Source of the DNA: Streptomyces dengpaensis
GTDB lineage: Bacteria > Actinomycetota > Actinomycetes > Streptomycetales > Streptomycetaceae
Assembly (NCBI RefSeq): GCF_002946835.1
Contig: NZ_CP026652.1
Coordinates: forward strand, 5,394,001-5,458,000
DNA: 64,000 bases
Reading direction: 5' to 3'
Both the position numbers and the translations under genes were made by a program. Shown here piece by piece: positions 32,359 to 54,422 of this stretch (positions within the stretch are counted from its first letter, which is position 1; every line of letters begins with the position of its first letter). The notes under the pieces are model-generated. The model had not been told where the DNA came from and made no database searches. It worked only from the letters and a program-made list of their open reading frames with translations.

Positions 32359-32384
32359 GCCGTCCTTTTGCTACCTTTGAAGGA

Positions 32385-32438
32385 CCCCGACGAGACGCGC
32401 CGTACCGGGACGTAAGAGCACGTACGAAAAGACGACGC
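32385..32438 (+). promoter_or_regulatory. Guanidine-III riboswitch (ykkC-III)
   Basis: The leader of sugE contains CCCCGACGAG, then GCGCCGTAC, CGGG and AAAAGACGACGC in that order, matching the guanidine-III pseudoknot aptamer as I remember it from Thermobifida. P1 forms from CCCG and CGGG; P2 from GCGCCGT and ACGACGC with one internal C-A mismatch. The linker is longer than usual and can form ACGT-ACGT pairing. Guanidine binding should switch on the exporter gene, whose start lies 35 bp after the aptamer, so control of translation start is likely. Confidence 0.78.
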
Positions 32439-32473
32439 ACCCCGGTCCATCCCGTCTCTCGGAGGTGCCTCTC

Positions 32474-32794
32474 ATGGCCTGGGTTCTGTTGGTCGTCGCC
32501 GGTCTGCTCGAAGTCGGCTGGTCGGTCGGGATGAAGTACACGGACGGATTCACTCGGCTGGTGCCGAGCGTCCTCACGGGTGCGGGCATCGTCGCGAGCA
32601 TGGTTCTTCTGTCGTACGCCGCCAAGTCGCTCCCGATCGGTACCGCCTACGGCGTCTGGGTCGGCATCGGTGCGGCCGGTGCGGCGGTGCTCGGCATGGT
32701 CGTGCTCGGTGAGCCGGCGACCGCCGCCCGGATCTTCTTCGTGTGTCTGCTGCTGGTGGCCGTGGTGGGGCTGAAGGTCACCTCCGGCCACTGA
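32474..32794 (+). CDS. sugE: Guanidinium exporter of the SMR family (SugE/Gdx)
   Basis: 106 residues, four membrane helices. Starts MAWVLLVVAGLLEVGWSVGMKYTDGF, with the essential proton/substrate glutamate Glu13 in the GLLEVGW motif that distinguishes Gdx exporters from the EmrE drug pumps. Functions as a dual-topology dimer exchanging guanidinium for protons. The ATG at 32474 follows GGAGG by 8 bp. A guanidine riboswitch upstream supports the substrate. Confidence 0.93.
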   Translation: MAWVLLVVAGLLEVGWSVGMKYTDGFTRLVPSVLTGAGIVASMVLLSYAAKSLPIGTAYGVWVGIGAAGAAVLGMVVLGEPATAARIFFVCLLLVAVVGLKVTSGH

Positions 32795-47314: not shown

Positions 47315-47755
47315 TCACTGGTGCCGCGACGGGCCGCGCAGCTTCTCGGCCGCCCAGCCGACCAGGCTGCCGGCATAGCCGCCGTCCGCCCACACCAGGC
47401 GGATGGAGAAAATCATCGCGCGCAGCCGCTCAGGCAGGGGCACGGCGGCGTCCGGGTCCTGCACGCTCGCCGCGGTCACCGCGACGGCCAGGACCAAGCC
47501 GAGGCAGTCCACCACCAGGTGCCGCTTGCGTCCGCCCACCTTCGTCCCGCCGTCCCGGCCGGACGTCGAACGCGGGATGTTCGCCGCTGCCCGCACCGAC
47601 TGCGAGTCCACGATCGCGGCCGTCGGGTCCACCGCGCGGCCCGCCTTCTCCCGGACGCGGTCGCACAGCCGGTCGTGAAGCTCGGCGAGCAGCCCCGTCA
47701 CCTGCCAGCGGCGGGCAAAGGCATGCACCCGCCGTATCGGCGCCCGCTGCCGCTG
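47315..47755 (-). pseudogene. IS5-family transposase remnant
   Basis: A minus-strand frame encodes the middle of a DDE transposase: VDSQSVRAAANIPRSTSGRDGG, GGRKRHLVVDCLGLVLAVAVTAASVQD and IRLVWADGGYAG, including two of the catalytic Asp blocks. The first hundred residues and the C-terminal Glu region (the usual WVVERTF block) are absent, and the frame ends early at EKLRGPSRHQ. No terminal inverted repeats could be identified. It sits between the truncated MarR gene and an intact small gene. Confidence 0.85.
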
Positions 47756-47762
47756 CCGCCCC

Positions 47763-48065
47763 TCAGCCCCGGCGGTCGGCCACCGCCCAGGAGGCGAGCG
47801 CGACGGCTCCCGCGACGCCGAACACGGCGGGCCAGGCGCCCACCTTCTTGGCCAGCGGGTGGGACCCGGCGAAGGCGGCGACGTACGCGGCGGACAGGAC
47901 CCCGGCGGCCTTTCCTCCGGCCCGCTGCTTCCACTGCTGCGCGGCCGCGGCCCCGGCGGCGGCGAGTACGACGCCGCCCAGCTGCCGCTTCTTGGTCCAG
48001 CGGGCCACGCCGTACCCACCGATGAGCCCACTGGCGGCCACCGCCGCGGACGGAACCTTCGCCAT
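47763..48065 (-). CDS. Small hydrophobic protein, unknown function
   Basis: 100 residues, ATG with a GGGAGG site. Alternating Ala/Gly-rich hydrophobic stretches (AAVAASGLIGGYGVARW, LGGVVLAAAGAAAAQQW, AGVLSAAYVAAFAGSHPLAKKVG, AVFGVAGAVALASWAVADR) suggest three or four membrane helices. Codon use is normal, so it is probably real and resident. The transposase remnant starts at its stop codon. Confidence 0.7.
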   Translation of the reverse strand: MAKVPSAAVAASGLIGGYGVARWTKKRQLGGVVLAAAGAAAAQQWKQRAGGKAAGVLSAAYVAAFAGSHPLAKKVGAWPAVFGVAGAVALASWAVADRRG

Positions 48066-48819: not shown

Positions 48820-49070
48820 CCTGCGCTCCACAACGGATGTGGGCCGGCGAGGCGTTGGGGCCTTGGGGCCGCCCGCGACTCCGGGGCCGGTCATCGGATG
48901 GCCCCAGCGGTCAGGGCGCTTCACTAGCAAGGGTGCCGACGGACGGCTTCACGCACCCCGGTCAACAAGTCCTCGCACCCCGTCCGTTCGCCGCAAACGC
49001 CTCGCTCGAGCAGCCTGGGTGGCGGCCTGGGGGGCGGACTGGAAGACGTCATGGCCCGCACACGCAGAGA
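48820..49070. other. Stretch without a recognisable gene
   Basis: No coding frame here shows a start signal, domain or consistent codon pattern. Several frames are open only because of GC content. The right edge leads into the terminator and tRNA described next. Confidence 0.4.
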
Positions 49071-49100
49071 ACCCCGCCCCTGGCAGACCAGGGACGGGGT
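49071..49100 (-). terminator. Terminator hairpin for the tRNA-Gly-like gene
   Basis: On the minus strand ACCCCGTCCCTGG pairs with CCAGGGGCGGGGT, 13 bp with one wobble, four-base loop. It begins eight bases after the 3' end of the tRNA-like gene and is followed by TCTCT. Confidence 0.8.
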
Positions 49101-49108
49101 CCTTTCAG

Positions 49109-49178
49109 AGCGCCGGGCAGGCCTTGCACCTGCATTTCCCCGCAGGAAGCGGGGCGTCTTTCCTTGGACCACCAACGC
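49109..49178 (-). tRNA. Atypical tRNA-Gly-like gene (anticodon UCC)
   Basis: A complete 70-nt cloverleaf can be drawn by hand on the minus strand. Acceptor GCGTTGG pairs with CCGGCGC (two G-T wobbles); D arm GTC-CAAGGAAA-GAC keeps A14 and G18G19; anticodon stem CCCCG/CGGGG with loop CTTCCTG gives anticodon TCC; T stem GCAGG/CCTGC with loop TGCAAGG. Discriminator T73, G1-C72, C2-G71, G3-C70, C35 and C36 are the glycine identity elements. Odd features: G instead of T at position 55 (GTGC for GTTC), a pyrimidine at 37, a four-base variable loop, and no encoded CCA. A terminator follows. It is either a specialised tRNA-Gly or a decayed one; the intact stems favour the first. Confidence 0.72.
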
Positions 49179-49402
49179 ATCGCGTGTCACCCGCACTTGG
49201 GTGCCGCGCTCAAGATCGACTGTACCGCACCGAAGGCTTCGCACACAAGATCACGGGCGGCCCATGCGCCGCGACTCAGCCCAGGACGCCCGCCGTTCGC
49301 GAACGCCCTCGACGGTGGCCCAACCCCCCTGCCGCGACACCACCTTCGTCCGAGCGGATTGCGGCGCCGGTCGTGTCGGCGCCGCACCCCTGGGAGGCCT
49401 TG

Positions 49403-52867: not shown

Positions 52868-53092
52868 CTACAAGTGGTCATCCTGCGCGTGCCTGCTCCA
52901 GGACGGCTGGTTCTTGAAAGCCCGCACGAAGGAGCGCCAGGCCTCGCCGCCGCCCACAGTGATCACGGCCTCTTTCGCGCTCTTAGGGACGCGCACGAGA
53001 GCCCTGCATTCGTCCAGCGCACACTTCACGCATCGCTGATCAGGCGGCGAATGGCAACCACACCCCTCACTCCCGATAGACGGGCGGCGCAT
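52868..53092 (-). CDS. Possible DUF397-like small protein
   Basis: Up to 75 residues. ECRALVRVPKSAKEAVITVGGGEAWRSFVRAFKNQ has the final strand and W-x-x-F-x-x-x-F helix of DUF397 proteins, but the front half does not fit the family. The ATG at 53092 lies inside the HNH gene 3' end; a shorter start at 53029 (GTG) is possible. Real but with uncertain start, or a relic. Confidence 0.4.
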   Translation of the reverse strand: MRRPSIGSEGCGCHSPPDQRCVKCALDECRALVRVPKSAKEAVITVGGGEAWRSFVRAFKNQPSWSRHAQDDHL

Positions 53093-54422
53093 TGCTGTAC
53101 GTGTGCCCCGTCGGGCTGGTCCAACGGGCAATCCCCGTACGCGGATCCCGCGCCACCTTCCATCCCGGATGGTGTGTCTTCAGCCGATGATGGCGCCGAC
53201 ACAACGGCTGCAGATTCTCCGGAACCGTCAGCCCGCCCGCCTCGGGACGCTCGTGATCAAACGGTCGTACGTGATCGACATCGCAACGATGGGCAGGCAT
53301 ACGGCAACTGGGAAACGCGCAGTACTGATCGCGGGCAATCACCTGCCGCTCGGCATCGGCCGTCGGCCTGTAGGTCGTCGGATCGGCCTTCACGAGCAGC
53401 CCGCTGCCAGGATCCGTGATGAGCCGCCGCCAGATGGTCCCCGGCGCAAACGCGATCTCACGGGCCTGCCCCGCAGTGATCGGCCCGTACCCCTTCAGGT
53501 CAGCGGGCCCGTCATCGGCGCCGACCAGAACATCGAGGGGCACGGTGACCTGTACGACGGCGGAAGCCCGCCCACGCGCCGGAACGCCACAATCCGCCAC
53601 CGCACCAGCCCGATTGACGACAAGGTCGTACAACGCATCGGCACGCTTCTGCGCCAGGGTCCGCCCGTCGTTGTCGAAGGTGGCCGCGTGCGCATCGACG
53701 GCCTGCTCCATCTGCGCAGCCTGCTGAGCAGGCAACACGGCGCCGAACAGAGCCATCCCGTCGTCTTGTGGATAGCAGACCGTCTCCCGATCCTGCTTCC
53801 GCCGCCGATGACGCTCCTCAGCTCCGTCCGGATCGGCCTTGTGGATCTGCCTACGCAGCGCGGCCCGTGTCTGTCCCACAGCCAGTGCCGGCATCTTCGT
53901 GAGCATGACGGCCTCAACCTGCCCGGCCGTCGCCGGCTCAAGGACCGCACACAACTCCGTCATCGCCTGTGCCTGCAGATAGGAGATGTCCCCGCTCTTG
54001 AGCAGCGCCAGAGTCGCCGGATACCGCGAGCACAACTGCTGGGCCACAACGAGCCTCCGCGAACCGGTGTCACTGGCCAGCCGCAACGCACAAGCGACTT
54101 CATCACTCGTGGAGTCCCACTCCCGCAACTGCCGAGTATCGAAGTCCTCACCAACAGAAGCAGCATCCGACCCGGACTCCACATACTCCCCAATGGCCGC
54201 CAACAACTCGACCTGCAGCCCCTGCAGCCAAGCGATGTGCCGCTCGAACGCGCCCAGGGCATCAATCCGCCCTCGCGCCGAAAGCCCCTCACCAGCCAAC
54301 TCGACCAGCAGCCCCACGGTCTCCACCGAAGGCGCGCACTCCCGCAATTCGGCGACCCACTCATCCGTCACCCCGGACGGCACATCAACCTCGGACTCCA
54401 CCGCAACAGCCATCGCGCTCAC
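53067..54422 (-). CDS. DUF222/HNH endonuclease-domain protein
   Basis: 451 residues. N-terminal two thirds is the helical DUF222 (13E12-type repeat) domain; the C-terminus carries the HNH block CAFPSCRMPAHRCDVDHVRPFDHERPEAGG followed by NLQPLCRRHHRLKTHHPGW, with two cysteine pairs able to bind zinc. Such genes are repeated and mobile-looking in actinobacterial genomes, and some lie in defence or prophage regions; no partner methylase is seen here. Start is GTG 54422 or ATG 54413, both weakly supported. Confidence 0.9.
   Translation of the reverse strand: MSAMAVAVESEVDVPSGVTDEWVAELRECAPSVETVGLLVELAGEGLSARGRIDALGAFERHIAWLQGLQVELLAAIGEYVESGSDAASVGEDFDTRQLREWDSTSDEVACALRLASDTGSRRLVVAQQLCSRYPATLALLKSGDISYLQAQAMTELCAVLEPATAGQVEAVMLTKMPALAVGQTRAALRRQIHKADPDGAEERHRRRKQDRETVCYPQDDGMALFGAVLPAQQAAQMEQAVDAHAATFDNDGRTLAQKRADALYDLVVNRAGAVADCGVPARGRASAVVQVTVPLDVLVGADDGPADLKGYGPITAGQAREIAFAPGTIWRRLITDPGSGLLVKADPTTYRPTADAERQVIARDQYCAFPSCRMPAHRCDVDHVRPFDHERPEAGGLTVPENLQPLCRRHHRLKTHHPGWKVARDPRTGIARWTSPTGHTYSNAPPVYRE

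Follow-up and report, generated by a model that had tools for sequence, protein, structure and literature searches.

Glycine tRNAs that avoid translation are a known idea. The staphylococcal non-proteinogenic tRNA-Gly species, the glycine donors of FemX, FemA, and FemB, have a UCC anticodon and carry GUGC in the T arm. A study of these RNAs gives G49-U65 and G51-C63 as the strong EF-Tu pairs, in place of which three S. aureus tRNA-Gly have A49-U65 and A51-U63 (PMC4052509). A second precedent is the B. cereus pseudo-tRNA tRNA-Other, which is not used in translation, affects the cell wall and antibiotic resistance, adjoins a genomic island, forms part of larger regulatory RNAs, and is iron-responsive (PMC3399842). 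A dispersed, multi-copy, accessory family of tRNA-Gly, with glycine identity but a lost decoding-loop geometry, such as the one described here, was not recognized in our searches of open-access literature.

The DNA analyzed (the window) is a stretch of 64,000 nucleotides from Streptomyces dengpaensis (NZ_CP026652.1, positions 5,394,001–5,458,000). A sequence-only reading had placed in it a minus-strand, tRNA-Gly(UCC)-like cloverleaf at 49109–49178; ARAGORN, which calls tRNA-Gly(tcc) at 49108–49178 on the minus strand, and our own reading of the sequence bear this out, as do the family matches, covariation, and loop survey presented below. The 69-nt body occupies 49110–49178 and the discriminator U73 lies at 49109; CCA is not encoded at this copy, and TCTGA follows. 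The acceptor stem (GCGTTGG/CCGGCGC) pairs over all 7 bp, although the stems first described as intact include here two wobbles, U4-G69 and U5-G68. The D arm has a 3-bp stem and the loop CAAGGAAA, the anticodon arm is CCCCG-CTTCCTG-CGGGG, the variable region has 4 nt, and the T arm is GCAGG-TGCAAGG-CCTGC, such that the T loop TGCAAGG, the pyrimidine (U) at position 37, and the retained D-loop GG had all been read correctly. Programs differ over this RNA: it is called by ARAGORN, but the Rfam tRNA model RF00005 leaves it unmatched at the gathering score and also at E ≤ 10 in a search of 401 bases, and its 71 hits in the whole genome do not include it. The predicted fold (z −1.96, with 6 of 200 shuffles equally good) is by itself weak evidence; that the RNA stands beyond chance follows from comparison across genomes of the same genus, of which 162 of 295 are matched. 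A normal tRNA-Gly(UCC) is also encoded in the S. dengpaensis genome (L150), which makes the window RNA dispensable for decoding. The genome has a second copy (G000:C1:483973-484034, L129) whose 3′ half is intact and which has a terminator-like hairpin; it lacks the D arm and looks like a remnant.

The count of 162 Streptomyces genomes comes from a blastn search of the region, with at most two candidates scored per genome, and denotes genomes with a match, the intactness of the copy having been inspected in part of them; many of the matches listed are 97–100% identical over the RNA. A covariance model built from 19 copies matched 163 of the 295 genomes, one of which (G167) proved to hold a core-type tRNA, leaving 162, with up to nine matches per genome and often identical scores for the copies within one genome. 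Outside the genus the model matched none of 15 genomes in a sample of the order, and in a sample of the class (n = 197) it matched 12 Streptomyces genomes strongly and five genomes of other families at 36–39 bits, which may be ordinary tRNAs. Plasmids carry the RNA at 136 places in 70 records (68 from Streptomyces and two from Streptantibioticus), and at least 120 stretches match among genome contigs, 79 of the 80 listed being from Streptomyces and one from Actinacidiphila. A phage collection gave no match, nor did viral contigs to one exact pattern of the RNA, and a phage origin was rejected on these grounds. Among the first 100 genomes, carriers were larger than non-carriers (9.2 versus 8.0 Mb; 51 versus 49 genomes; p about 1e-6), as expected of accessory DNA. 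The accessory setting suggested by the sequence-only reading is thus confirmed by larger host genomes, plasmids, and many unrelated sites.

The RNA is flanked by elements expected of a small transcription unit. On the minus strand, a −10-like box (TACAGT, 49219–49224), followed by CGATCTTG, lies upstream. TANNNT stands 38–66 nt ahead of the RNA in 209 of 214 copies, against 30 on average and at most 50 when the sequences were mononucleotide-shuffled 100 times, and together with RATC it is present in 119 of the 214 against a shuffled mean of 0.44. Downstream, the terminator first claimed at 49071–49100 was recovered as an intrinsic-terminator-like hairpin at about 49072–49099, which with its U-rich tail spans 49066–49099 on the minus strand. 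In 213 of the 214 copies the 55 nt downstream contain a hairpin of 6 bp or more, the downstream fold has z < −2 in 211 (median −5.7), and the terminators form 85 groups at 0.8 similarity; the 214 copies include relatives and are not independent. TCCA, with CCA encoded, occurs at 90 of 220 copies. Judged by its sequence, each family copy is a complete small gene with a promoter-like box and a terminator. A leader hairpin (CACCC-AAGTGC-GGGTG, 49188–49203, minus strand), picked out by eye and without a statistic, was dropped as a special feature, canonical tRNA-Gly genes of the S. dengpaensis genome (L150 and L151) also having upstream hairpins.

Covariation was assessed on 54 distinct sequences which, like the 214 copies, come from one search pattern. 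This pattern prescribes the 3′ acceptor end, U73, and most T-arm positions (A51 among them, and either U or G at 63), with GCG(T/C)(T/C)(G/T/C)G as its 5′ anchor; 220 copies were found, and six without a recognized 5′ end were dropped. Because the pattern prescribes these parts, acceptor and T stem pairing is partly built into the test; the D and anticodon arms were left free. Standard pairs make up 99.6% of the paired cells, and 89 cells are changed on both sides, versus a mean of 19.8 in shuffled alignments and 4–10 in slid structures. The anticodon stem contributes 57 of these 89, with both sides changed in all five of its pairs and 100% of its cells pairing, so that the compensated stem changes called for by the earlier reading are found in relatives. 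The number of further pair types (23, versus 20.8 in shuffles) was reached in 43 of 500 shuffles and is not clearly beyond them. The sequence of the window RNA is the commonest among the 214 copies, being that of 54 of them. That the RNA is a decayed tRNA, as the sequence-only reading had allowed, or a chance resemblance, would fit the unmatched Rfam model, the modest fold score, the S. dengpaensis copy lacking a D arm, and at least one other copy (L010) with a broken 3′ end. The RNA stays nearly identical across the genus while its flanks diverge; this, the covariation, and a promoter-like box and terminator at nearly all 214 copies speak against it, as does the prevalence of the sequence that the window RNA has. 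We consider it barely credible for the window RNA, and for the family it is rejected by conservation and covariation.

Three types can be told apart by the anticodon loop. Type A, to which the window RNA belongs, has the loop CTTCC(T/C)G. The loops of the other two are 6 nt long: C(A/T)(A/G/T)CCG in type B, best aligned without position 37, and (C/A)TCCAA in type C. The loop is 7 nt long in 34 of the 54 distinct sequences and 6 nt long in 20. CC at positions 35–36 is present in all 54 while its neighbors vary; UCC is present in 40, and the 14 sequences lacking it all have 6-nt loops. Position 37 is a pyrimidine in every one of the 34 seven-nucleotide loops, that of the window RNA included, and an additional C32-G38 pair is possible in 49 of the 54. 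The D-loop AAGG is invariant (54/54), with G18-G19 not replaced.

By eye, this invariant AAGG sits in a stretch, AAGGA(A), that resembles a Shine-Dalgarno sequence and is complementary to UUCC in the anticodon loop of type A; this complementarity is not kept in type B. Four type B copies from two related genomes (L096, L121, L123, and L124) have a palindrome roughly 130 nt upstream of the RNA, with a constant CGATCC center and two arms that vary together from one copy to the next; seen in one group only, it was dropped as a family feature, a motif search at 202 copies giving no other strong case.

The main bacterial glycine identity elements are C35, C36, the acceptor ends (G1-C72, C2-G71), and U73. 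The family shares with elongator tRNA-Gly a cloverleaf bearing these elements, and lacks the purine at 37 and the 7-nt glycine-anticodon loop that go with it in bacterial elongators. Acceptor ends and the 51-63 pair were judged on two alignments not selected by the pattern, of 19 rows and of 29 family rows: glycine acceptor ends of the form GCG.../...CGC are present in 19/19 and 29/29 rows, A51 in 19/19 and 29/29, U63 in 19/19 and 28/29, and the A51-U63 pair in 19/19 and 28/29, with G-C at 49-65 in those rows. The canonical UCC and CCC tRNA-Gly of S. dengpaensis, read manually, have G49-U65 and G51-C63. That glycine identity is retained although the decoding loop varies in length suggests that charging, and not decoding, is under selection, and, since the marks for glycine loading are kept and loop geometry is lost in some relatives, the RNA family probably serves as a glycine carrier for a process outside protein synthesis.

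An extra elongator tRNA-Gly(UCC) on large genomes and plasmids, helping to read GGA or GGG, would be in keeping with type A, which retains U33, an intact cloverleaf, and a UCC that can sit in a 7-nt loop, and for which some decoding is possible. We regard this as very unlikely for the RNA given the uniform pyrimidine at 37, the possible C32-G38 pair, G55 in the T loop, the weak EF-Tu pair, the 6-nt loops (20/54, 14 of them without UCC), and the canonical UCC and CCC genes already present.

In its A51-U63 pair, which replaces G51-C63, and in being extra to the canonical isoacceptors, the window RNA is like the staphylococcal tRNA-Gly species (PMC4052509). In contrast to them, it keeps the D-loop GG and has G-C rather than A-U at 49-65, and because of these two differences we do not place it in that family; the accessory family further differs in the shortened loop of types B and C and in being dispersed and accessory.

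Dispersal raises the question of whether the RNA is a tRNA-derived element, comparable to eukaryotic SINEs, in which a unit of ~160–200 bp (promoter, leader, tRNA-like RNA, and terminator) multiplies into intergenic sites and any host function is secondary or absent. Copies at different sites have unrelated flanks, and in six sets of paralogous copies examined conservation drops outside the transcription unit; there are up to nine matches per genome, often with identical scores within a genome, and recurrent neighbors are unrelated. The nearest mechanically defined ORFs point towards the RNA (downstream in 151 of 198 cases, upstream in 132 of 198), as an element settling in intergenic sites might. 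However, neither a terminal repeat nor an associated enzyme was noticed, canonical tRNA genes likewise keep their sequence while flanks diverge, and flanks common to related genomes (the tsaD group; G333 and G360) point to stable inheritance. Selection on the RNA itself is indicated by covariation and by the constant CC, and we think such an element improbable.

The preferred reading, a non-decoding glycine tRNA, calls for an enzyme that uses the glycine, and no gene for one was seen beside the RNA. When neighbors were clustered at 204 of 218 loci, only small groups formed and no gene was shared: the largest comprised 21 of the 204 loci, with tsaD as representative, and the recurrent representatives (TsaD, GroEL, malate dehydrogenase, lipase, GH3, and LytR-CpsA-Psr) are unrelated. 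A separate clustering of 21 contexts likewise gave only small groups, and the eight annotated plasmid contexts, out of 70 records, had nothing obvious in common. An operon partner was rejected on the strength of these three surveys. Near the window RNA, a DDE transposase-like ORF (47315–48031, minus strand) and a DUF222-HNH protein (53067–54422, minus strand) give the appearance of a disturbed accessory region. Elsewhere in the window, a guanidine-III riboswitch (32359–32441, plus strand) lies just upstream of an SMR (small multidrug resistance) transporter gene (32465–32794).

FemAB proteins were matched in all 295 genomes, which speaks for the preferred reading. Their match counts, which are domain matches with at most five candidates scored per genome, did not differ between genomes with and without the RNA (means 3.68 and 3.53 in 162 carriers and 133 non-carriers, with G167 excluded from carriers; p = 0.69), and FemAB dosage as a link to the RNA was rejected accordingly. 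The cell-wall role put forward by the sequence-only reading thus found no support in FemAB distribution. Such a role is possible, and we do not favor it over other glycine-consuming reactions because no partner gene was seen next to the RNA, FemAB counts do not differ, and the RNA differs from the staphylococcal case.

A further point against it is that the host already has another tRNA that could do the cell-wall job. This second aberrant tRNA-Gly(UCC), here called the core aberrant tRNA, lies at G000:C1:4549680-4549751 (L142:201-272) on the minus strand, just upstream of tRNA-Gly(GCC), and is missed by ARAGORN in the S. dengpaensis genome. Its odd features were read in S. dengpaensis, L107, L132, and L133 only: like the window RNA, it has GUGC in the T arm, a UCC loop, and glycine acceptor ends, but it differs in its D loop, where GG is replaced by AG (by eye), in its degenerate T stem, in the purine at 37, and in its distribution, a gene 86–100% identical to it being present in all 84 Streptomyces genomes of the order sample. 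The core aberrant tRNA combines GUGC with an altered D-loop GG, as the staphylococcal cell-wall tRNAs do, whereas the window RNA is without the latter change, which tells further against the cell-wall claim made for it. On these sequence features the core aberrant tRNA is a strong candidate for a FemX donor, and a better one than the window RNA. Among four tRNA-Gly sequences of the S. dengpaensis genome that were compared, it is also the closest to the window RNA (score 19.5, 50 identities; others 1–4), and it is perhaps the ancestor of the accessory family. In S. coelicolor, the GlcNAc regulator DasR binds both the upstream region of glyS and a tRNA-Gly gene located upstream of SCO3679 (PMC4398421).

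We propose that the window RNA family consists of accessory, non-decoding glycine tRNAs whose glycine is used by a non-ribosomal transferase, a proposal that in our estimate has an even chance of being right. The gene, with its promoter-like box, leader, and terminator, would give a short transcript to be processed to a tRNA, which host glycyl-tRNA synthetase would charge through the C35-C36, G1-C72, C2-G71, G3-C70, and U73 elements present. The anticodon loop, unfit for decoding, would keep the RNA off the ribosome, and its T stem and T loop may weaken EF-Tu binding and elbow docking. Its glycine might then go to a non-ribosomal aminoacyl transferase whose gene lies at another place in the genome. 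The FemAB type is the likeliest, and the glycine would serve for a peptidoglycan bridge or for tRNA-dependent peptide modification; this partner step is the weakest one. The earlier proposal of a dedicated glycine donor accordingly survives as the best inference, with identity kept and decoding geometry lost, and with charging as a prediction from the identity elements.

A decoy or regulator offers another account of the family, in which a tRNA-like RNA binds GlyRS, a tRNA-targeting toxin, or another tRNA-binding protein without giving up glycine and thereby alters gene expression, the stress response, or mobile-element competition, charging not being required. The multi-copy and plasmid-borne state, the larger genomes, and the lack of any partner operon seen are consistent with this, and B. 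cereus tRNA-Other provides a precedent (PMC3399842). The family is like tRNA-Other in being a tRNA-like RNA outside translation, but it differs in its close promoter-like box and terminator and in being multi-copy. The toxSAS FaRel2 is also pertinent to such an account, since it picks tRNA-Gly by the acceptor stem; its determinants include G4-C69 and Pu5-Py68 (PMC11559606). A FaRel2 decoy in particular was rejected, as 19/19 and 29/29 rows have U at position 4 and a pyrimidine at position 5, which leaves the RNA without either of these determinants. Against a decoy in general, charging of the RNA would most simply explain why the loop CC, the acceptor ends, and U73 are retained together, and we judge a decoy or regulator to be rather unlikely, while ranking it first among the alternatives. 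In its broadest form, the glycine-donor reading would make the family a new class of dispersed Streptomyces glycine carriers, in which selection preserves the requirements for glycylation while the decoding loop is dismantled in separate lineages, and which supplies glycine in trans, at variable dosage (0–9 matches per genome, plasmids too), to a putative non-ribosomal transferase. This wider formulation is more tentative, and we put its chances somewhat below even.

If charged, the RNA would be a non-decoding glycine tRNA that is widespread in a major antibiotic-producing genus, with a match in about half of the sampled genomes, and that is readily overlooked, since the Rfam tRNA model leaves it unmatched. 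The core aberrant tRNA-Gly(UCC), for its part, makes testable which tRNA is the source of the glycine bridge in the Streptomyces cell wall. The window RNA offers a direct handle on how Streptomyces divides its glycyl-tRNA among translation and the other processes that draw on it, and may open the way to new tRNA-dependent enzymes.
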